From Clostridiaceae bacterium HFYG-1003 (lineage in GTDB: Bacteria > Bacillota > Clostridia > Clostridiales > Clostridiaceae), in NCBI GenBank assembly GCA_024579835.1, contig CP102060.1, positions 3,199,558 through 3,263,557 on the forward strand: a DNA stretch of 64,000 nucleotides, written 5' to 3'. Numbering within the stretch: the first letter of the stretch is position 1; each line of letters starts with the position of its first letter. Positions 18,965-27,526 of this stretch are shown piece after piece. The notes below the pieces were generated by a model, which saw only the letters and a list, made by a program, of their open reading frames with translations, was not told where the DNA came from and ran no database searches. A program made the position numbers and the translations under genes.

Positions 18965-19879
18965 ATGAAAAATCTTAATTTAAAACAACTCCGAGTCTTT
19001 CTGACGGTAGCCGAAATGGGCAGTTTCACAGGCGCAGCCATGAAGCTGTTTCTGTCTCAGTCTACCGTCAGCAGTCATATCCAGGCCTTGGAAGAAGACC
19101 TTTGCGTGGTCCTGTTTCTGCGGGAAGCCAAGAAACAGATCCGCCTGACCAAAGAAGGCAATCGACTGATTCCCTATGCCAGGGAGATTATCAGCCGCTG
19201 CGATGCTCTGGAGCACAGCCTGTCAGGTTATGTGGAAAAAGAGCTGGTGATCGGGGCTTCCACCGTACCGGCCCAAAGTTTTGTTCCCCGGTATGTCTCT
19301 GAATTTCTGAAGAAGCATCCTGGTACATCTGTTTCAATTCACACCGGCGACAGCGAGGAAATTTTGAATCTCCTGATGAACCATGAAATCCAGCTTGGAT
19401 TTGTCGGAACCCATTACAACCGTCAGTCTCTGACCTATGAGGCCGTGGGGGAGGATCATCTGGTGCTTGTGACCCCCAATCTGCCGGAATTCTTCCAGAT
19501 GAAGGAAAGAGGCGTGTATGGCAGGGAACTGCTGGATCAGCCGCTGATTCTCCGGGAAACCGGTTCGGGTACTCAAGCGATGGTTGATTTTTACCTCAAC
19601 CGGCTGGAAGGTCGAAAGAAACCGCTGGCGCCGGTGGTGCGAACCTCAGACCCGGGCTGTATTAAGGAACTGGTTCGTCTGGGGACCGGGGTGGCCCTGA
19701 TGTCCGCCCGGACGGTTCAGGATGCCGTCAAGACTGGGCAGGTGATCCAGTTCGAACTGGAAGAGATACCGGTGGTGCGACGGTTCTATATGATCCATCG
19801 TAAAAAAGGCGGATTGAGTGAACTTGGCCAGTCGTTTCTGGAGCTGGTCCGAGCGGAGCCGTTTCAATCCTACTCATAA
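18965..19879 (+). CDS. LysR-family regulator, sulfur/selenium-module type
   Basis: A 304-residue LysR-type transcription factor: winged helix-turn-helix at about 5-65 ('MGSFTGAAMKLFLSQSTVSS') and a periplasmic-binding-fold effector domain ('LVIGASTVPAQSFVP', 'LILRETGSGTQ', 'LVRLGTGVALMSARTV'). The pattern of the effector domain resembles LysR regulators annotated as selenium-metabolism-associated in Clostridia; this is from memory and unverified. It lies directly upstream, same strand, of the activator/cysteine desulfurase/DCCP/DUF3343 genes and is the obvious candidate regulator, although an inverted repeat and a new promoter separate them. The Shine-Dalgarno sequence is poor. Confidence 0.85.
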   Translation: MKNLNLKQLRVFLTVAEMGSFTGAAMKLFLSQSTVSSHIQALEEDLCVVLFLREAKKQIRLTKEGNRLIPYAREIISRCDALEHSLSGYVEKELVIGASTVPAQSFVPRYVSEFLKKHPGTSVSIHTGDSEEILNLLMNHEIQLGFVGTHYNRQSLTYEAVGEDHLVLVTPNLPEFFQMKERGVYGRELLDQPLILRETGSGTQAMVDFYLNRLEGRKKPLAPVVRTSDPGCIKELVRLGTGVALMSARTVQDAVKTGQVIQFELEEIPVVRRFYMIHRKKGGLSELGQSFLELVRAEPFQSYS

Positions 19880-19894
19880 GATAATAATAGGAAC

Positions 19895-19939
19895 CATAAG
19901 CGGTTTGTTATCGGTTATATCGATAACAAACCGCTTATG
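19895..19939 (+). terminator. Long perfect inverted repeat, probable terminator
   Basis: A perfect 19-bp stem CATAAGCGGTTTGTTATCG / CGATAACAAACCGCTTATG with a 7-base loop lies 15 bases after the LysR stop. The following sequence (ATTTAATC) is only weakly T-rich, so termination is plausible but not textbook. An operator role ahead of the next promoter is the alternative. Confidence 0.55.
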
Positions 19940-19954
19940 ATTTAATCTAACTAT

Positions 19955-19983
19955 TTGTAGCAAATTTAACAGCAATCTATAAT
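19955..19983 (+). promoter_or_regulatory. Sigma-A-type promoter of Fe-S/sulfur module
   Basis: TTGTAG (19955) and a consensus TATAAT (19978) are 17 bp apart. The predicted start is near 19990, about 50 bases before the activator gene. Confidence 0.7.
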
Positions 19984-20038
19984 CATGGTAGGAAACAAAC
20001 GATAATCAGAAGATTGCTTCTGTAAAAAGAGGATTCAT

Positions 20039-20827
20039 ATGAGTTATTTTATCGGAATTGACATCGGATCTACCAGTGCCAAGACCATTGTAATGGATCA
20101 GGATCGCAAGGTAGTACACCATCTGCTTCAGCCAACCGGCTGGAGCAGTGCTGATACAGCCCGGTCCATCGGGGACAGTTTGAAATCCCAGGGAGTGGAT
20201 CCCTGGGAAGATCTTTGTGTAGCAACCGGCTACGGTCGGATTTCAGTTCCCTATGCCGACCGGCGCATCACTGAAATCAGCTGTCACGGGAGGGGAGCCT
20301 GCCATATACATGACACGCAGAACCTTACGGTCATTGATATCGGCGGCCAGGATACGAAGATTATCCGGGTCGACGAGGGAGTGGTCAGCGATTTCAACAT
20401 GAATGACAAGTGCTCGGCCGGCACCGGCCGGTTTCTGGAAGTCATGGCCAATACCCTCGGAGTCACCCTGGATGAGCTGTTTCAATTGGCTCAGTCCGGC
20501 GGAGGCACCTCCATCAGTTCCATGTGCACTGTATTCGCCGAGTCTGAAGTGATCAGCCTGATCGGACGGGGCGAGGCCAAGGAAAATATTGCCTTTGGAA
20601 TTGTCGATTCCATTGTTCGAAAAGTGGCGTCGCAGGCAGCCCGGTATATGAGTCAACCGGGGATTGTCTGCCTCACCGGCGGTCTATGTGACGCGGAATA
20701 TGTCCGCCAGTCACTCTCAGCGCTGCTGAAGGTGCCCGTACAGTCTGTGCCGCTGGGTCGATACGCCGGTGCCATCGGAGCAGCCCTTTACGCCTGCACC
20801 GAGGGTTCCCGGGAGGTGTCCCGGTGA
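20039..20827 (+). CDS. HgdC/BcrA-type Fe-S activator ATPase
   Basis: A 262-residue ASKHA-fold ATPase of the BadF/BadG/BcrA/HgdC family. Members are homodimers holding one [4Fe-4S] cluster that use ATP hydrolysis to push low-potential electrons onto 2-hydroxyacyl-CoA dehydratases or double-cubane proteins. The nucleotide loop 'GIDIGSTSAKT' is at 6-16, 'IGGQDTK' at 101-107, and the cluster cysteines are Cys125 ('NDKCSAGTGRFLE') and Cys163 ('SSMCTVFAESEV'). Start ATG follows AGAGGA. Its stop overlaps the next start (GTGA), so translation is probably coupled. Given its neighbours the partner is the double-cubane-type protein two genes on, not a CoA dehydratase with alpha and beta subunits. Confidence 0.92.
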   Translation: MSYFIGIDIGSTSAKTIVMDQDRKVVHHLLQPTGWSSADTARSIGDSLKSQGVDPWEDLCVATGYGRISVPYADRRITEISCHGRGACHIHDTQNLTVIDIGGQDTKIIRVDEGVVSDFNMNDKCSAGTGRFLEVMANTLGVTLDELFQLAQSGGGTSISSMCTVFAESEVISLIGRGEAKENIAFGIVDSIVRKVASQAARYMSQPGIVCLTGGLCDAEYVRQSLSALLKVPVQSVPLGRYAGAIGAALYACTEGSREVSR

Positions 20828-21972
20828 TCTATCTGGATAATGCAGCGACGACCCTTCAGAAACCGCCCGGTGTGATCGATGCCGTGATTCAGGCAATGAC
20901 CTCTATGGGAAATGCTTCCCGGGGGACTCACGCATCCTCTCTGGAAGCCAGTCGGATCGTCTATCAGGCCAGGGTTCGCCTGGCCCGGTTGTTTGGCTGT
21001 GCCCGGGCCGATCATGTGGTCTTTACTGCGAATTCTACTCAGGCGCTCAACACTGTAATCACGGGTCTGATACGCCCCGGTGACCATGTCATTACCACGG
21101 ACCTTGAGCATAATTCAGTGCTCCGTCCGCTCTATCGCCTGAAGCGCGAAGCGGCGGTCAAATTAAGCTTTGTGCGGTCTGATACCAAAGGCCGGCTGTA
21201 CATGGATGACTTCCGTCGGCTGATTCGTCCTTCGACCAGTGCCATTATATCAACGCATGCTTCGAATTTGACCGGGAACCTCGTGGATCTCGTGACGATC
21301 GGAGCGATTGCCCAAGAGGCCGGAATTCCATTTGTTGTCGATGCCTCACAGACCGCCGGAATTTTTCCTGTCCATATGCAGGAGATGGGGATCGACGCGC
21401 TTTGCTTTACCGGTCATAAGGGACTGATGGGACCACAGGGCACCGGCGGACTCTGTTTCAGGGAAGGACTGAAGCTTCGACCGCTCCTGGTCGGAGGAAC
21501 CGGGGTGAATTCCTATGAGGAAAGCCAGCCCGATTCCATGCCGGCCCGGCTTGAAGCCGGTACCCTGAACACTCACGGAATTGCTGGACTGGCCGCAGGG
21601 GTGGACTTTATAGAAACCACCGGTCAGAGTGTGATTCGCGAACACGAACAGAGGCTGATGCGTCAGTTTGTCGCCGGACTAAAGGATATTCCAGGCGTTC
21701 GAATCTATGGCGATTTTTCAGACCGGGAACGGGCCGCCATAGTCGCTTTAAATCTGGCAGATCTCGATTCTGGGGAAGTGTCCGATGAACTGGCCCAGCG
21801 CTATGAGATCGCCACCAGGCCAGGCGCTCACTGCGCACCCCGGCTGCACCGCGCGCTGGGAACCGATCGCACCGGCGCGGTTCGATTCAGTTTTTCCTGG
21901 TACAATACCGAAACCGAGGTCCGGAGGGCCCTGGAAGCCTTGAAAGAAATTTCGGAATCGATGCGCAATTGA
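20824..21972 (+). CDS. Class V aminotransferase, cysteine desulfurase family
   Basis: A 382-residue PLP enzyme with a GTG start overlapping the preceding stop by 4 bases. 'YLDNAATT' opens the protein, the PLP lysine is in 'FTGHKGLMGPQG' (about 200), and the persulfide-forming cysteine is Cys337 in 'RPGAHCAPRLHRALGT'. The short loop around that cysteine and the overall pattern suit the TIGR01977-type desulfurases of anaerobes, distinct from NifS/IscS. It would release sulfur (or selenium) from cysteine (or selenocysteine). Placement inside this operon suggests that it supplies sulfur for the double-cubane cluster or feeds the DUF3343 carrier. A 218-base gap follows before the next gene. Confidence 0.9.
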   Translation: MIYLDNAATTLQKPPGVIDAVIQAMTSMGNASRGTHASSLEASRIVYQARVRLARLFGCARADHVVFTANSTQALNTVITGLIRPGDHVITTDLEHNSVLRPLYRLKREAAVKLSFVRSDTKGRLYMDDFRRLIRPSTSAIISTHASNLTGNLVDLVTIGAIAQEAGIPFVVDASQTAGIFPVHMQEMGIDALCFTGHKGLMGPQGTGGLCFREGLKLRPLLVGGTGVNSYEESQPDSMPARLEAGTLNTHGIAGLAAGVDFIETTGQSVIREHEQRLMRQFVAGLKDIPGVRIYGDFSDRERAAIVALNLADLDSGEVSDELAQRYEIATRPGAHCAPRLHRALGTDRTGAVRFSFSWYNTETEVRRALEALKEISESMRN

Positions 21973-22190
21973 CCGGTCAGTGATAAGGAAAGCCTTGAAA
22001 AAAGTGAACTGGACCAGGAAAATTTCAGCAATGATATTTTCGACAATAGAGAAATTCCACACAAGAGAATTTCATCAACAAGAATTTGATCAAAGCATAC
22101 CGGTTGGAGCAATGAAGGGGAATTCAGGGCCAGCGGCAGGTAAAAAATAATAAAAGCGGATCGATGATCTTCGATCGATGGAGGAACAGT

Positions 22191-23465
22191 ATGTCAGATT
22201 ACGTACAGATGTGGCGGGAACTGGGAATGGACCTGGAGAATCATGATACTTTGTGCCAGGTGCTGCCGATGGCAGTCGGAGATGTTTTCCTGACTCAGGA
22301 AAATCGGCCGAAAGCAATGGATTTCTGGGATTTGGTGATCTCACAGGTCCATGGCATCCGTCCAGCCGAACTGGTAGAAGCTCAGAAAAACGGTCAGAAA
22401 GTCTTCGGCACCTTCTGTGTCTTTGTCCCGGATGAAGTGATTGTGGCAGCCAATGGCATTGTCACCGGTCTTTGCGGCGGTTCCCAGTTCTGGGTTCCGG
22501 ACGGGGAGGCGGTTCTGCCCAAGAGTACCTGCTCCTTAATAAAAGCTTCCGTCGGCGCGCGTCTCGGAAAAACCTGCCCCTTCTTCCAAATTGCCGATAT
22601 GTACGTTGGAGAAACGACCTGTGACGGCAAGAAAAAAGCCTACGAAATTCTCGGGAAGGAAGTTCCTATGCATGTCATGGATGTTCCTCAGATGAAGCGG
22701 GAAGAAGATATTCTGAAGTGGAAGCAGGAGATTGCTCATTTTGCCGGCACGGTGGAAGAAGTCACAGGGAATCCAGTTACACCCGAAAAGCTCAGTGAGG
22801 CAATCCGTCTGCTCAATCAGAAAAGACGGGCTCTGGCCAGAGTTTATGATGCCAGAAAATCCGAAGTGGTGCCGATCTCCGGCCGGGATGCCCTGTTGAT
22901 GACCCAGATCTCGTTCTTTGATGATCCGGAGCGCTGCGCCAAGATGTGCAACCGGCTGGCCGACGAACTGGAAGAGCGGATCCGGGATGGTGTTTCCGTA
23001 GTCCCTCAGGGGACCAAGCGGATCCTGGTCACCGGAACGCCTTTGGCAGTCCCGAACTGGAAACTGCATAACATTATCGAAACCAGCGGAGCGGTGGTGG
23101 TGTGTGAAGAAATGTGCACCGGAACCCGCTACTTTGAACACCTGGTGGATGAAAAACCGAACAGCCTGGACGGACAGTATGACGCACTGGCCCGGCGCTA
23201 CATGAAAAACAACTGTGCCTGCTTTACCCCCAATCAGGGCCGGATCGAAGACATTCTGCGCCTGGCCCGGGAATACAAAGCGGATGGCGTCATTGACTGC
23301 AATCTGAAATTCTGCGGACTGTACGACATTGAAAAATTCAATGTGACGAAAGCCCTGAAAGAAGCCGGAATTCCTATACTCAATCTGGAAACGGACTATA
23401 CCGACACCGATGCGGAACAGCTGCGCACACGGATCGGAGCCTTTGTTGAAATGCTCCATGGCTAA
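22191..23465 (+). CDS. Double-cubane cluster protein / HgdB-like dehydratase subunit
   Basis: A 424-residue protein of the 2-hydroxyglutaryl-CoA dehydratase D-component superfamily (PF06050). I chose ATG 22191 because GGAGG lies 8 bases upstream; an in-frame ATG at 22164 lacks one. It is a single-subunit type, as in double-cubane proteins (DCCP, [Fe8S9] cluster) that reduce small molecules when paired with an HgdC-like ATPase. Candidate ligands include the cysteines in 'GLCGGSQFW', 'STCSLIK', 'KTCPFFQIADM', 'VGETTCDGKKK', 'EEMCTGTRYFE', 'NNCACFTPN' and 'DCNLKFCGLYD'. There is no CoA-dehydratase partner gene. Physiological substrate unknown. Confidence 0.88.
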   Translation: MSDYVQMWRELGMDLENHDTLCQVLPMAVGDVFLTQENRPKAMDFWDLVISQVHGIRPAELVEAQKNGQKVFGTFCVFVPDEVIVAANGIVTGLCGGSQFWVPDGEAVLPKSTCSLIKASVGARLGKTCPFFQIADMYVGETTCDGKKKAYEILGKEVPMHVMDVPQMKREEDILKWKQEIAHFAGTVEEVTGNPVTPEKLSEAIRLLNQKRRALARVYDARKSEVVPISGRDALLMTQISFFDDPERCAKMCNRLADELEERIRDGVSVVPQGTKRILVTGTPLAVPNWKLHNIIETSGAVVVCEEMCTGTRYFEHLVDEKPNSLDGQYDALARRYMKNNCACFTPNQGRIEDILRLAREYKADGVIDCNLKFCGLYDIEKFNVTKALKEAGIPILNLETDYTDTDAEQLRTRIGAFVEMLHG

Positions 23466-23727
23466 AGACCTGGTGTACTATATATTATTTGAAAACTATG
23501 ATCAAGGCATGGCATTGCATGATCTGCTGGATCAGAGCGGGATCGATCATCGGATCGCTTCAACGCCTCGGCAGGTCAAGGGCAGCAAACCCTGCGGCAT
23601 GTCCATCCTGGTCTTTCCTGAAGCTCTTGAGTCGGTTCGAAAGACCATCCGGGAGCATCAGGCCCTCTATTTGGATATCGTTCCTCTGGAGAATCAATTG
23701 AAATCCAGACGGGATGTATATTGCTAG
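23458..23727 (+). CDS. DUF3343 small protein, putative S/Se carrier
   Basis: An 89-residue protein whose ATG overlaps the end of the double-cubane gene by 8 bases, implying coupled translation. The single conserved cysteine region 'STPRQVKGSKPCGMSI' matches the DUF3343 (PF11823) pattern 'TPR...SCG', annotated as putative Se/S carrier. The final residue is also cysteine. With a cysteine desulfurase two genes upstream, accepting a persulfide on the Cys of 'PCG' is a reasonable inference, not shown. The short length and coupling suggest an accessory to the double-cubane protein. Confidence 0.82.
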   Translation: MAKDLVYYILFENYDQGMALHDLLDQSGIDHRIASTPRQVKGSKPCGMSILVFPEALESVRKTIREHQALYLDIVPLENQLKSRRDVYC

Positions 23728-23742
23728 TTGATTCCCTTTTCG

Positions 23743-23779
23743 CCGGAGTGTGGGTTAGACATTCCGGTCTCTTTTTTTA
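23743..23779 (+). terminator. Rho-independent terminator
   Basis: Stem CCGGAGTGT / ACATTCCGG with one G-T pair and loop GGGTTAG, followed by TCTC and seven T. It ends the Fe-S/sulfur operon. Confidence 0.85.
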
Positions 23780-23959
23780 TGCGGATTGAATACTGCCGGT
23801 ACCAGGAACAGGTTCAGCCGGGTTAAGTCACATTCGGTCTGATCTTAATCCTCCGGAAATGGAAGCGGATCTTCGGACCGGACTCGCTGCTTTCGAATCA
23901 GGGTTCATGATTTGTTAACCGGATGGTGGCAGGGCCTGTAGGCCCATCCATTTGGTTTG

Positions 23960-23968
23960 ATGCTATAA
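23960..23968 (+). promoter_or_regulatory. Extended -10 promoter abutting FNR-type gene
   Basis: TGCTATAAT fits an extended -10 (TGnTATAAT). Transcription would begin around 23975, at or within a base of the ATG at 23976, so the mRNA could be leaderless. No good -35 hexamer is present at 17 bp. Confidence 0.65.
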
Positions 23969-23975
23969 TTAGGCC

Positions 23976-24689
23976 ATGAGAAGCGAAATGAAACCCCAGG
24001 CAGAAGCACAGGAGTGCCAGACCTGCCACCACGAGGATGTCTGTGTGAGCCATGTGCCCGCATTTATGAAGTTGTCCCGGGCGGAGATCGATGCCATCGC
24101 CCGTCTGGTTGAGCATCGCGACTATCCGAATCAGGAAATCATATTTCGAGAAGGCGATCCGACGGACCGTCTTATTATCCTGCACCGGGGCAAGGTCAAA
24201 CTGATCCGCTACGGTCAGGAGGGTGAGGAAATTGTTCTGGATATAATGACTCCGGGAGATATCCATGGCGGCGATGAGCTGTTCTCCACCCAGCGGCAGA
24301 AGGAAACGGCAGTGACCATGAGTCCGGTTGGAATCTGTTTAATCTCCTATGAGCGCATCAAGGAGCTCATAATGGAACAGCCCCGGATCGGAATCAAGAT
24401 CATGGAGTACCTGTCGCTGAAACTGGATCAGAGCCATGCGCTCCTGGAAATTATTTCGACCCGGGACACCATGAAAAAGCTGGTAATGTTCCTGCTGGAG
24501 CGCCGGCAGCGCACGGGTTCGGATCAGCTGGAACTGACCCAGTCCGATATCGGAAACTCCATCCATCTGACCAAGGAAACGGTGAATCGGAAATTGAGCG
24601 AACTGGCTGAATCAGGCCTCATCACGAAGGGCCATGGCTGGATTCAGCTGAAAAATATCGAAGGGCTGGAAGAACTCCTTCAAAGTTGA
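23976..24689 (+). CDS. FNR-type [4Fe-4S] oxygen-sensing regulator (Crp/Fnr family)
   Basis: A 237-residue Crp/Fnr protein: cyclic-nucleotide-like beta roll (about 30-140), dimer helix and winged helix-turn-helix ('LTQSDIGNSIHLTKETVNRK', about 188-207). Cys14, Cys17 and Cys23 ('CQTCHHEDVC', spacing C-x2-C-x5-C) plus Cys121 ('PVGICLISYE') match the four cluster ligands of E. coli FNR (Cys20, 23, 29, 122) in spacing and context. The recognition helix reads E-T-V-N-R where E. coli has E-T-I-S-R, so a TTGAT-type half-site is expected. The start sits immediately after a strong -10 with no ribosome-binding site; Met5 (23988) is the alternative start. A matching DNA site overlaps its own stop codon, upstream of the flavodiiron gene. 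Confidence 0.9.
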   Translation: MRSEMKPQAEAQECQTCHHEDVCVSHVPAFMKLSRAEIDAIARLVEHRDYPNQEIIFREGDPTDRLIILHRGKVKLIRYGQEGEEIVLDIMTPGDIHGGDELFSTQRQKETAVTMSPVGICLISYERIKELIMEQPRIGIKIMEYLSLKLDQSHALLEIISTRDTMKKLVMFLLERRQRTGSDQLELTQSDIGNSIHLTKETVNRKLSELAESGLITKGHGWIQLKNIEGLEELLQS

Positions 24690-24727
24690 TTTGAATCATA
24701 TTCTTGAGGTCATTGCCTCGCTATACT
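24686..24727 (+). promoter_or_regulatory. FNR box plus -10 of flavodiiron gene (class II layout)
   Basis: TTGAT-TTGA-ATCAT (24686-24699) matches the FNR consensus TTGAT-N4-ATCAA at nine of ten positions. TATACT at 24722-24727 is a good -10 and there is no recognisable -35. With +1 taken as 24734, the box is centred at -41.5, the standard position of an FNR-activated class II promoter. The box overlaps the TGA stop of the regulator gene. The resulting leader is about 200 bases and contains a small hairpin GGTGA/TCACC near 24796. Confidence 0.75.
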
Positions 24728-24935
24728 GAAAGCATAAGACGGAGGAAACAAACCATTGATCAGACCAGGCGGGCTATCCACTGAATCAAGACAGGGGTGA
24801 ACAATCTCACCGGATCCTGCATGCCAGCACTGATTTCCTCGTTTCAAGGGCCATTGTGACCCTCGAACTTGTCTTCACTCACACCGCGAAGAAAAAAACA
24901 GTACTTATCGCCACAAAGGAAAGGAGTATGAATTA

Positions 24936-26120
24936 ATGAAAAGAACGGTCAAGAACAACGTCTCATGGATCGGAAAAATCGACTGGGAACTGGATACCTT
25001 CCACGGGGATGACTATAGCGTCAACCATGGTTCCAGCCAGAATGCCTACCTGATTGAGGAAGAAAAAACAGTTTTGATCGACACGGTCTGGACCCCGCAT
25101 TCGACGGAATTCCTCGACAACCTCAAGAAAGAGGTGGATCTGGCCAAGATTGACTACATCATCGTCAATCACGGGGAAGTCGATCACTCCGGTGTTCTGC
25201 CCCAGCTCATGAAAGAAATTCCCAATACTCCCATTTACTGCACCGCCAATGCCGTAAAATCTCTGGTGGGACAGTACCACCATCCGGAGTGGAACTTCAA
25301 TGTGGTGAAAACCGGGGACAGCCTGGACATCGGCAACGGCAAGCAGCTGGTATTCGTAGAAATGCGCATGCTGCACTGGCCTGATTCCATGGCAACCTAT
25401 ATGACCGGCGACAATATCCTGTTCTCCAATGATGCCTTCGGCCAGCACTTTGCCTGCGACGAGCTCTTCAATGACAAGGCGGACCAGTGTTTGCTCTGGG
25501 AAGAGGCTATCAAGTACTATGCCAACATCCTGTCGCCCTTCTCGCCCCTGGTCAAGAAAAAGATCACAGAAGTGGTCGGACTCAACCTGCCCATCGACAT
25601 CATCGCTCCGAGCCACGGCGTAATCTGGCGGGAAAATCCGCTGCAGATCATTGAGGCTTATGCCAAGTGGAGTGATGACTATCAGGAGGATCAGATCACG
25701 GTGATCTATGATACGATGTGGGACGGCACCAAGAAGATTGCTCACCGCATCGCGCAGGAGCTGAGCGAGATGGCGCCGACCACCAAGATCAAGGTCTACA
25801 GCATCTCGACCACCGACAAGAATGACATCATGACGGAAGTCTTCAAATCCAAAGCCATCGCGGTGGGATCTCCCACCGTGGGACAGGATATCCTCTCCTC
25901 TGTCGGCGGCTGGCTGCACTTCCTGAAGGAACTGAAGATGACCGGCAAGAAAGCCGCGGTGTTTGGCTGTTATGGCTGGAGCGGTGAAGGCAATAAGGTG
26001 CTCCGGGAAATGCTTGAAAAAGCCGGTTTCCCCGTAACCGATGTTGAAATCAAGTGCAACTGGAATCCCACCGAGGAAGTTCTCGCTCAGGCGAAGGCGG
26101 TTGCCCAGTCGCTGCTGTAG
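24936..26120 (+). CDS. fprA: Flavodiiron protein (O2/NO reductase)
   Basis: A 394-residue cytosolic A-type flavodiiron protein: metallo-beta-lactamase-like di-iron domain (about 1-250) followed by a flavodoxin domain with FMN (about 255-394). Di-iron ligands His79, Glu81, Asp83 and His84 are in 'NHGEVDHSG'; further ligands lie in 'MLHWPDSM', 'SNDAFGQHF' and 'APSHGVIW'. The FMN phosphate loop is near 'YDTMWDGTKK'. ATG follows GGAAAGGAG. Clostridial homologues reduce O2 to water and/or NO to N2O for protection. There is no rubredoxin fusion or adjacent rubredoxin gene, so the electron donor is encoded elsewhere. The upstream FNR box suggests oxygen-responsive control. Confidence 0.95.
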   Translation: MKRTVKNNVSWIGKIDWELDTFHGDDYSVNHGSSQNAYLIEEEKTVLIDTVWTPHSTEFLDNLKKEVDLAKIDYIIVNHGEVDHSGVLPQLMKEIPNTPIYCTANAVKSLVGQYHHPEWNFNVVKTGDSLDIGNGKQLVFVEMRMLHWPDSMATYMTGDNILFSNDAFGQHFACDELFNDKADQCLLWEEAIKYYANILSPFSPLVKKKITEVVGLNLPIDIIAPSHGVIWRENPLQIIEAYAKWSDDYQEDQITVIYDTMWDGTKKIAHRIAQELSEMAPTTKIKVYSISTTDKNDIMTEVFKSKAIAVGSPTVGQDILSSVGGWLHFLKELKMTGKKAAVFGCYGWSGEGNKVLREMLEKAGFPVTDVEIKCNWNPTEEVLAQAKAVAQSLL

Positions 26121-26241: not shown

Positions 26242-27165
26242 TCATTTCGGATCGGGGAACGCTGTGGCCGAATTCTCGGTCAGAGACTCTCGGATGAACT
26301 TCAGGAACAAGTCGGAAGCCAGAGTAAGTCTGCGGTCCCGGCGGTGAATATAGTAAATGTTGCGGCACAGCGGAATCGACTGAGTCAGATTCACCCTGCA
26401 CAGTAGACCAAGATCCAGTTCCTGCCGGACGGCGCTTTCGGACAGGATGGATATCCCCATGCGATTGTACAGACTTTGCTTGATGGCTTCAATGGAGCCG
26501 ACGGAGAACAGGCGCTTGGAATCGAATCTGAACTTTCCGGCTTGTTCCAGATACGGAATCAGGGAGGTATGGGGATTGGAGATCAGAAATGTTTCTTCCG
26601 CCAGCTCGTTCAGGTTGATGGAAGGCCGGTGCGTGAAGCGATGATCCGGCGGAACAACGATCAGGAGAGGATCCTCCAGGATGGACTCACAGACCAGCTC
26701 CGGCGGAGCCTCGAATTCCGGTTTTGAAATAAAGCCCATGGGGTAGGTTCCGTCCAGCACCTGGTCAATCACATTTTTAGTGTACTGGACGTTGTTCACA
26801 ATGGTGATGAAGGGATATTTCTGCTGAAACTTCAGCAGAAGGCTGGGCAGAATGTAAGTTCCGGGCGTACTGGAAGAGGTGATGGCAAAATGCGACTCCT
26901 CCATCAGTTTCGACTGAAGCAGATGCGTTCGGGCGTTGGCAAAGCTGTTCTGAATCTGCTGAGCGTAGGGCAGCAGGAGCTGGCCTTCTTTGGTCAGCTC
27001 GGCCCGTTTCTTGTTGCGGGTGAACAGCGCGCACTCGAAATACTCCTCGAGGCGCTGGATCCGCATGGATACGGCAGCCTGCGTGCAGAACAGCTGTTCG
27101 GCGGTTCGGGTAAAACTTTGGGTCTGTGCCAGAAGAAGAAAGGTTTGAATGGAATCCAGATTCAT
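26242..27165 (-). CDS. LysR-family transcriptional regulator
   Basis: A 307-residue LysR regulator. I chose the start at 27165 ('MNLDSIQTFLLL') because AAGGAG lies 7 bases upstream; a longer frame adds 43 residues unlike the family. Helix-turn-helix at about 18-37 ('FTRTAEQLFCTQAAVSMRIQ'), then the effector domain ('ITSSSTPGTYILPSL', 'FISKPEFEAP', 'SIEAIKQSLYNRMGISIL'). It is divergent from the DASS transporter operon across a 361-bp gap, the usual arrangement for a LysR regulator and its target, so it probably senses the transporter's substrate. Confidence 0.9.
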   Translation of the reverse strand: MNLDSIQTFLLLAQTQSFTRTAEQLFCTQAAVSMRIQRLEEYFECALFTRNKKRAELTKEGQLLLPYAQQIQNSFANARTHLLQSKLMEESHFAITSSSTPGTYILPSLLLKFQQKYPFITIVNNVQYTKNVIDQVLDGTYPMGFISKPEFEAPPELVCESILEDPLLIVVPPDHRFTHRPSINLNELAEETFLISNPHTSLIPYLEQAGKFRFDSKRLFSVGSIEAIKQSLYNRMGISILSESAVRQELDLGLLCRVNLTQSIPLCRNIYYIHRRDRRLTLASDLFLKFIRESLTENSATAFPDPK

Positions 27166-27526
27166 AGCAGCTCCTTGCATCGGTGGGGAAAGGCAGTGGT
27201 GGAAAGGAATCAGTCCGATCGGAAACCTCCTCATTCGGCGCTGACCTGGCGGATTATCATAAACATTTTTTATTGTAGTATAAAACATATGCATATAAAA
27301 ACCAAGGCATCAATTAGAAAAAAAATCGAGGAGCTAACTTAATAAGATTTATTTATGAAATCGGTTCTTCTTCAGTCTGCTATCACTTTTGCTGATGATT
27401 ATGATAAAATGTCGTGATTGTTCATTGTTCTGCTTTTTTATTATCATTAGGATTGTCCTGGGATCACAGGACTGAACAGCCAGCTTTGACAACCCGGGCA
27501 TTAAAGCTGGACATCGTTGGAATGGA
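27166..27526. other. Divergent regulatory region, LysR / DASS operon
   Basis: This AT-rich region must hold both divergent promoters. A TATACT reads on the minus strand near 27275 and a short palindrome ATATGCATAT lies near 27288, consistent with LysR control, but no complete promoter could be assigned. No gene was recognised. Confidence 0.4.

Follow-up and report, generated by a model that had tools for sequence, protein, structure and literature searches.

A putative class II FNR-type promoter links a four-cysteine regulator to a flavodiiron gene and to a probable O2/NO-defence and Fe-S-repair regulon in Clostridia

The control of O2 and NO scavenging in strict anaerobes is partly understood, and the published cases that we found involve the repressors OseR and Rex, sigma-B, and HcpR. 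We analysed a 64,000-nucleotide stretch of DNA from Clostridiaceae bacterium HFYG-1003 (CP102060.1), hereafter the window, in which the gene of an FNR-type regulator is followed on the same strand by that of a flavodiiron protein, in a host whose strict anaerobiosis we infer from its family. A four-cysteine FNR in control of flavodiiron and RIC genes in various clostridial genera would be a testable element, comprising box, start site and regulator. It raises the question of whether a cluster that O2 and NO destroy is used to arm the cell in advance, or whether the sensing logic is reversed.

A sequence-only reading of the window had placed an FNR box at exactly -41.5 of the flavodiiron promoter, over the fnr stop codon, with TATACT at 24722 and no -35 element, and our analysis reproduced this to the base. 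By direct reading, positions 24686-24699 (+ strand) are TTGATTTGAATCAT, which matches 9 of the 10 bases of TTGAT-N4-ATCAA, the consensus of E. coli FNR, and which contains the fnr stop TGA (24687-24689); a conserved AT (24700-24701) follows directly. The -10 element TATACT lies at 24722-24727 (+), 22 nt after the box, and the slot for a -35 element at 17-nt spacing (24699-24704) is TATTCT, with only two of six matches to TTGACA. The box centre, 24692.5, falls at -41.5 relative to A24734 (+), the predicted transcription start, which is supported by a C-A initiator at 24733-24734 that is common to the sites of relatives. An FNR-like box centred near -41.5 of the predicted start, together with a -10 element and no good -35, is the arrangement of a class II promoter, at which E. 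coli FNR can dispense with the -35. PMC3688515 places the site at -41.5 ± 4 in 19 of the 23 E. coli promoters that FNR activates directly and whose start is known. The predicted 5' leader of about 200 nt (24734-24935, +) has no Rfam match and no unusual fold (z-score -0.17), and a known structured RNA was rejected for it on these grounds.

The upstream gene (23976-24689, + strand) encodes a 237-aa protein with a cNMP-binding fold and a Crp-type HTH, as found by ORF and domain searches. Three cysteines lie near the N-terminus (C14, C17 and C23) and a distal fourth at C121, which is the four-cysteine pattern of FNR. Their N-terminal spacing (3 and 6 residues) is the same as in E. coli FNR, although the aligner left the third E. 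coli cysteine unaligned. The recognition helix, K-E-T-V-N-R (residues 200-205, codons at 24573-24590, +), is of the form E-x-x-N-R and thus keeps the E and R of the E. coli E-x-x-S-R helix with N in place of S. The description of this gene in the sequence-only reading, as an FNR with all four cluster cysteines and an E-x-x-N-R helix, therefore held. The best match of the regulator was NF008365, a curated model of E. coli-type Fnr, at 75 bits, far below the cut-off of 228, so that we regard it as FNR-type and not as a member of the E. coli Fnr subfamily. Among solved structures, the closest to it in sequence are Crp/Fnr-family proteins that carry no cluster annotation (3i54, E 6.5e-20), and chains named 'FNR type regulator' rank behind them (e.g. 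5cvr, E 2.2e-16). A FastTree phylogeny, from which L182, L186 and L038 were left out, placed the regulator beside E. coli FNR with a support of 0.90 on long branches, a placement to which we give no weight. As far as sequence can tell, the protein most likely carries an N-terminal [4Fe-4S] cluster.

The start of fnr can also be read at ATG 23988. An apparent extended -10 promoter, TGCTATAAT, occupies 23961-23969, with a predicted transcription start at or next to ATG 23976, and translation may accordingly be leaderless or begin at ATG 23988. No strong matrix site was found upstream of fnr in the matrix scan of the window described below. Further upstream, 18965-23727 holds a gene cluster with a LysR regulator of the selenium-metabolism type, an acyl-CoA dehydratase activase, a double-cubane-cluster reductase, a cysteine-desulfurase-family protein (its second-best model is selenocysteine lyase SclA, under cut-off) and a 105-aa protein without NCBIfam match.

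The downstream gene (24936-26120, + strand) encodes a 394-aa flavodiiron protein of the two-domain type, as the earlier reading had supposed. It matches NF008887 (E 1.1e-183, 610.7 bits, under the model cut-off of 635) and contains the ODP (PF19583), metallo-lactamase (PF00753) and flavodoxin (PF00258) domains that define class A. The motif NHGEVDHSG at residue 78 is of the H-x-E-x-D-H type, and we take it and three further flavodiiron motifs to be the diiron ligand sites. A second LysR regulator (26242-27294, - strand) faces the flavodiiron gene from downstream; its best model is again the selenium-metabolism-associated family, under cut-off.

Taken alone, the box is weak and not striking. 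With up to one mismatch, TTGAT-N4-ATCAA occurs seven times in the window, compared with 3.25 ± 1.88 times in shuffled sequences, and 7 of 100 shuffles reached seven matches. The box could thus be a product of chance or of coding constraint, with the flavodiiron gene driven by another promoter or by read-through from fnr; the commonness of one-mismatch boxes (the thirteen-mer TTGATNNNNATCA has 78 copies in the 3.43-Mb genome), the overlap with the stop codon and the long leader all speak for this. A consensus scan of 23700-25000, however, found no sigma-70-type promoter on the + strand (two were on the - strand). The extended motif TGATTNNAATCAYA was rarer, with three occurrences in 3.43 Mb of the window's own genome (G000), two in G002 and none in G001; the reversed pattern had none in each of the three, as an imperfect control that contains other short words.

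Footprinting in a relative with the same gene pair had been named beforehand as a test that could refute the site. Our sample of the genus comprised three genomes (G000, G001 and G002), and G002 is the only other one with the pair, which is thus the sole eligible genome; its regulator is 72% identical at the amino acid level over the 134 residues present on the contig, its recognition helix is likewise KETVNR, and its flavodiiron protein is 88% identical. The box, the 22-nt spacing and the -10 were all kept there, the intergenic gap reading TTGATTAAAATCAT, 22 nt, TATACT. Between the window and G002, TTGATT and AATCATAT are identical at 14 of 14 bases, the whole box at 12 of 14 and the -10 at 6 of 6, compared with 8 of 20 in the spacer between box and -10. 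The third positions of conserved codons have diverged to saturation (13 of 46 and 28 of 104 identical). Neither the ATCATAT half nor the -10 is part of the coding frame, and both were kept at this divergence, which argues against the chance reading and led us to reject stop-codon constraint as the sole cause of the conservation. The other flavodiiron loci of the genus in G001 (L039) and G000 (L040) hold no one-mismatch box, and that of G002 (L041) has a single one, over 1 kb before the gene.

G002 also carries a second box, TTGATGGGAATCAT (L038, 480-493), about 31 bases after the predicted flavodiiron start. It is a possible repressing or roadblock site and has no counterpart in the window.

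G000 has seven HTH_Crp_2 matches (E up to 1e-4), four of them above the curated cut-off and the neighbouring regulator included, which opens the possibility that another Crp/Fnr-family protein of the genome binds the site. Two full-length paralogues, of the six others, could be aligned, and their helices are RPSLQR and RSSLSR, with neither the FNR-type E nor the cysteines; G001 has an RPSLQR paralogue yet shows no fnr match and no extended motif. We rejected a paralogue as the binder on the evidence of the two aligned proteins, and consider binding by any other family member highly improbable.

The comparison was then widened to the family and order. Crp/Fnr relatives were found in 34 of 58 genomes searched, and the 28 loci returned from outside the genus (L009-L036) were analysed. 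The window regulator is distant from this clostridial set (26-34% identity by tblastn over these in-order loci; 30% to L020). In eight of them (L009, L010, L014, L018, L020, L021, L022 and L023), the regulator gene is directly followed by a box with at most two mismatches and, after exactly 22 nt, by a -10, and the 14 box bases of the window are unchanged in L014. A flavodiiron gene lies within about 1.5 kb of the regulator in six (L013, partial; L014, L021, L025, L028 and L029); the same arrangement precedes the flavodiiron genes of L025 and L029, and a weaker version is found by reading in L028 (GTGACTTGAATCAT, 22 nt, TAGAAT). The exact core with 22 nt and a -10 is present in 12 of the 28.

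We extended the analysis to the best 80 of 546 matches to a regulator alignment, drawn from Clostridium, other Clostridia, Bacillaceae and Paenibacillaceae; many of these loci belong to related species, and they include the DNA of at least 7 of the 28 above, so that the counts are not independent. Among 294 box-strand matches of TTGAT-N4-ATCAA with at most one mismatch in these best 80 loci, a -10 follows at 22 nt 52 times, and other spacings average 9.15 (sd 3.70, maximum 18). No 22-nt peak appeared in the same loci for three scrambled palindromes (9, 2 and 4; means 6.9, 4.2 and 4.3). For the exact core TGATN4ATCA, the 22-nt arrangement occurs in 51 of the best 80 loci, against 0-14 at ten other spacings. 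Counts of loci with two mismatches allowed did not discriminate (66 of 80 at 22 nt, 33-58 at eight control spacings). In L091, from C. zeae, the regulator gene, a box and a flavodiiron gene follow one another.

The peak is shared by neighbouring motifs. In the same best 80 loci, TGTGA-N6-TCACA peaks equally at the class II distance (53 against 4.5), GTAAC-N4-GTTAC does so less strongly (19 against 2.4) and TTGAC-N4-GTCAA only slightly (4 against 1.0), which indicates that the motif of the relatives is a TTGAT/GTGAT mixture. 'FNR box' is accordingly only one reading of it, and motifs close to it may serve related regulators at this same place in the promoter. A site is present in the locus for 43 of the 55 regulators among the best 80 that have all four cysteines, and for 8 of the 25 without the full motif. 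The helices of the 80 are RETISR (67), RETVSR (6), RETMSR (5), RETLSR (1) and PETISR (1), all of which differ from the KETVNR of the window.

For a quantitative comparison, a matrix was built from 74 distinct sites, none of them from the genus of the window (80 before identical 42-mers were collapsed); it was applied to the window and to selected loci, and whole genomes were covered by the pattern searches. The 74 sites share features outside the palindrome: T after TGAT in 70, A before ATCA in 68, A two bases after ATCA (the 15th base) in 73, C before the start in 46 and A at the start in 59. The window site matches all these free positions, including CA at 24733-24734. With this matrix, 24686 came out on top in the window at 30.7 bits, with 0.5 for the runner-up, and the G002 site likewise led on its piece of contig, at 22.7 bits against -1.7. 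When the matrix was limited to positions that had not been used in selection, the window site had P of about 1e-5 under the base composition of the window and 5e-5 under an AT-rich clostridial composition, under which the G002 site had 0.0025. The weak L067 site (15.8 bits) precedes an ORF that is presumably CitG-like.

Once conservation, position and matrix score are combined, the site lies far beyond chance. The 22-nt spacing peak, the matrix rank, the conservation in G002 and the exact-core locus counts led us to reject a chance box, which we regard as improbable in the extreme. Direct class II activation of the flavodiiron gene by the neighbouring regulator, whatever the signal, is by contrast highly probable on this evidence.

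Regulator and flavodiiron gene had been proposed to form a two-gene circuit. The class II part of that proposal stood, with the box position, the predicted start at 24734 and the lack of a -35 in its favour, and the closed circuit did not. A second site in G000 (L157, C1:2748639-2748680) has the same 14-mer, 22 nt and TAGAAT, scores nearly as high (28.9 bits) and precedes a 97-aa protein and a heavy-metal P-type ATPase. The 97-aa protein has RIC as its best family, although its 47.8 bits fall short of the cut-off of 204.7, and no homologue of it was found in G001 or G002. The relatives have a wider regulon as well. Among the 67 ORFs that could be assigned to the 74 sites (for seven sites, no ORF of 60 aa began within 350 nt), Pfam identified 15 flavodiiron ODP and 15 ScdA_N (RIC/YtfE) proteins; hemerythrin domains occur in 21, RIC included, and there are four DUF438 proteins, four with FAD/NAD oxidoreductase domains, two aldehyde dehydrogenases and two Crp/Fnr regulators (39 families matched, of which 25 were listed). 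In L018, a hemerythrin gene is followed by Hcp. The second strong site and this wider set argue that the regulator serves a set of O2/NO-defence and Fe-S-repair genes and not one gene.

Other matches in the genus were less informative. The extended motif also occurs at G002:C292 and at G000:918678, where it has no -10 and falls within coding sequence or on its border. G000:1971779 fits a loose class II pattern. Such patterns are not specific in that genome: allowing one mismatch gave 26 matches (6 with the pattern reversed), and the extended form with two mismatches gave 39 (9 reversed).

Flavodiiron genes of the window type are common in the family (matches with E up to 1e-60 in 111 of 194 genomes). 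The 28 such loci returned from other genera (56-73% identical) have the exact core upstream in two, L212 and L214, where it is again found, by reading, 22 nt before TATTAT; one of the 28, L221, has a Crp/Fnr relative in the fetched stretch, a distant one (26%). At the other loci linked to a regulator, the flavodiiron protein is only 32-37% identical to that of the window, from which we infer that the link between regulator and flavodiiron gene was made in at least two flavodiiron lineages.

Our preferred explanation is that a dimer of the regulator, with its probable N-terminal [4Fe-4S] cluster, would bind TTGATTTGAATCAT at -41.5 and contact RNA polymerase in place of the missing -35, so that the flavodiiron gene would be transcribed from A24734. 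The intact cluster, present in anoxia, would be the active state, and the cell would be armed in advance; if the cluster behaves like that of E. coli FNR, the gene would be on in anoxia, and loss of the cluster to O2 or NO would lower its expression. The regulator also resembles a clostridial set whose core targets would be O2/NO-removing and Fe-S-repair proteins. We put the probability of this whole explanation at about 0.6. Several points count against it: this exact gene pair is repeated in one genome only, most window-type flavodiiron genes of other genera have no box, the regulator is distant from the clostridial set and differs in its helix, its closest solved structures carry no cluster annotation, the motif of the relatives shades into TGTGA-N6-TCACA, some regulators without the full cysteine motif still have a site, and C. 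difficile fdp genes behave in the opposite way. Both O2 and NO, moreover, inactivate E. coli FNR, which fits poorly with the induction of a defence gene.

In a rival reading with the same regulator and site, O2 or NO would itself be the activating signal, such that a nitrosylated, converted or lost cluster switches the regulator on and the flavodiiron and RIC genes are stress-induced. The regulon of the relatives is a classical nitrosative and Fe-S-repair set (flavodiiron 15, RIC 15 and DUF438 4 of 67), to which the hemerythrin with Hcp in L018 adds. The cysteine pattern of the regulator, however, C-x2-C-x5-C with a fourth cysteine, is that of the O2-labile E. coli FNR, in which loss of the cluster abolishes DNA binding. 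HcpR-type NO regulators do fill this niche in other anaerobes (PMC1274295, PMC12915319, PMC5701242). On balance we consider NO or O2 as the activating signal rather unlikely.

A different sign of control is conceivable, in which the regulator, its cluster intact, keeps the flavodiiron promoter shut in anoxia until NO or O2 damages the cluster. This sign suits a defence gene and matches the anoxic repression of C. difficile fdp by OseR (PMC11481553), and the model for D. desulfuricans HcpR2, which represses ylbA-hcp until NO damages its Fe-S cluster, is similar (PMC5701242). Repression is nevertheless improbable here, because the site occupies the class II position from which FNR activates those 19 of 23 E. 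coli promoters (PMC3688515), without a -35 and with a single fixed spacing across the relatives.

Activation from a class II site is thus the preferred reading, and as a mechanism it is already known. E. coli FNR has the same C-x2-C-x5-C with a distal cysteine, a helix with E and R, and a box centred at -41.5 (for the position, PMC3688515). It differs in its targets, which there belong to anaerobic respiration and here are O2/NO-removing and Fe-S-repair genes, in the S of its helix, where the window regulator has N, and in the asymmetric extended motif found here, with A at the 15th base in 73 of 74 sites; moreover, the host of the window comes from a family of anaerobes.

HcpR1 and HcpR2 are, like the regulator studied here, Crp/Fnr-family regulators that adjoin NO-defence genes in Clostridia and other anaerobes. 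In the D. desulfuricans HcpR2 model, the site lies behind hcpR2 and NO damages an Fe-S cluster, and the HcpR1 site of the same organism is TGTGA-N6-TCACA (PMC5701242). HcpR1, HcpR2 and DNR are stated to be without the FNR-type cysteine motif, and HcpR sites are given as TTGACnnnnGTCAA or GTAACnnnnGTTAC (PMC1274295). The core target of HcpR is hcp, whereas here it would be flavodiiron and RIC genes. We rejected membership of HcpR under the definition of PMC1274295, as the regulator has the FNR-type cysteines and its half site is TTGAT, not TTGAC or GTAAC.

Control of flavodiiron genes by O2, redox state or NO is also found in C. difficile (OseR, Rex and sigma-B) and in the E. coli NorR-norVW system, in which NorR is a sigma-54-dependent activator (PMC1274295); the window differs from both in its FNR-type class II activator site. 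In C. difficile, OseR and Rex repress fdp genes in anoxia and O2 induces them, a behaviour with which pre-arming here would contrast (PMC11481553), and 'fnr' has no occurrence in the main text of that article as available. The combination of regulator and targets in this clostridial regulon was not found in the openly licensed literature searched, and an FNR-type target set of this kind in anaerobes is apparently undescribed.

More tentatively, we propose that a four-cysteine FNR-type family in Clostridia has turned from anaerobic respiration to the dedicated control of O2/NO defence and Fe-S repair, that it acts at an asymmetric element of class II, TTGATTTNAATCAYAT, with 22 nt between box and -10 and a start at CA, and that it has captured at least two separate flavodiiron lineages. 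As O2 and NO should destroy the cluster, either the shield is permanently up in anoxia or the logic of the cluster is inverted and its damaged form activates; the reversed logic would suit the stress-type target list. In the Bacillaceae and Paenibacillaceae relatives L092-L101, L104, L107, L110, L111, L113 and L118, the N-terminal cysteine arrangement is altered and the fourth cysteine is kept, perhaps reflecting a different type of cluster.
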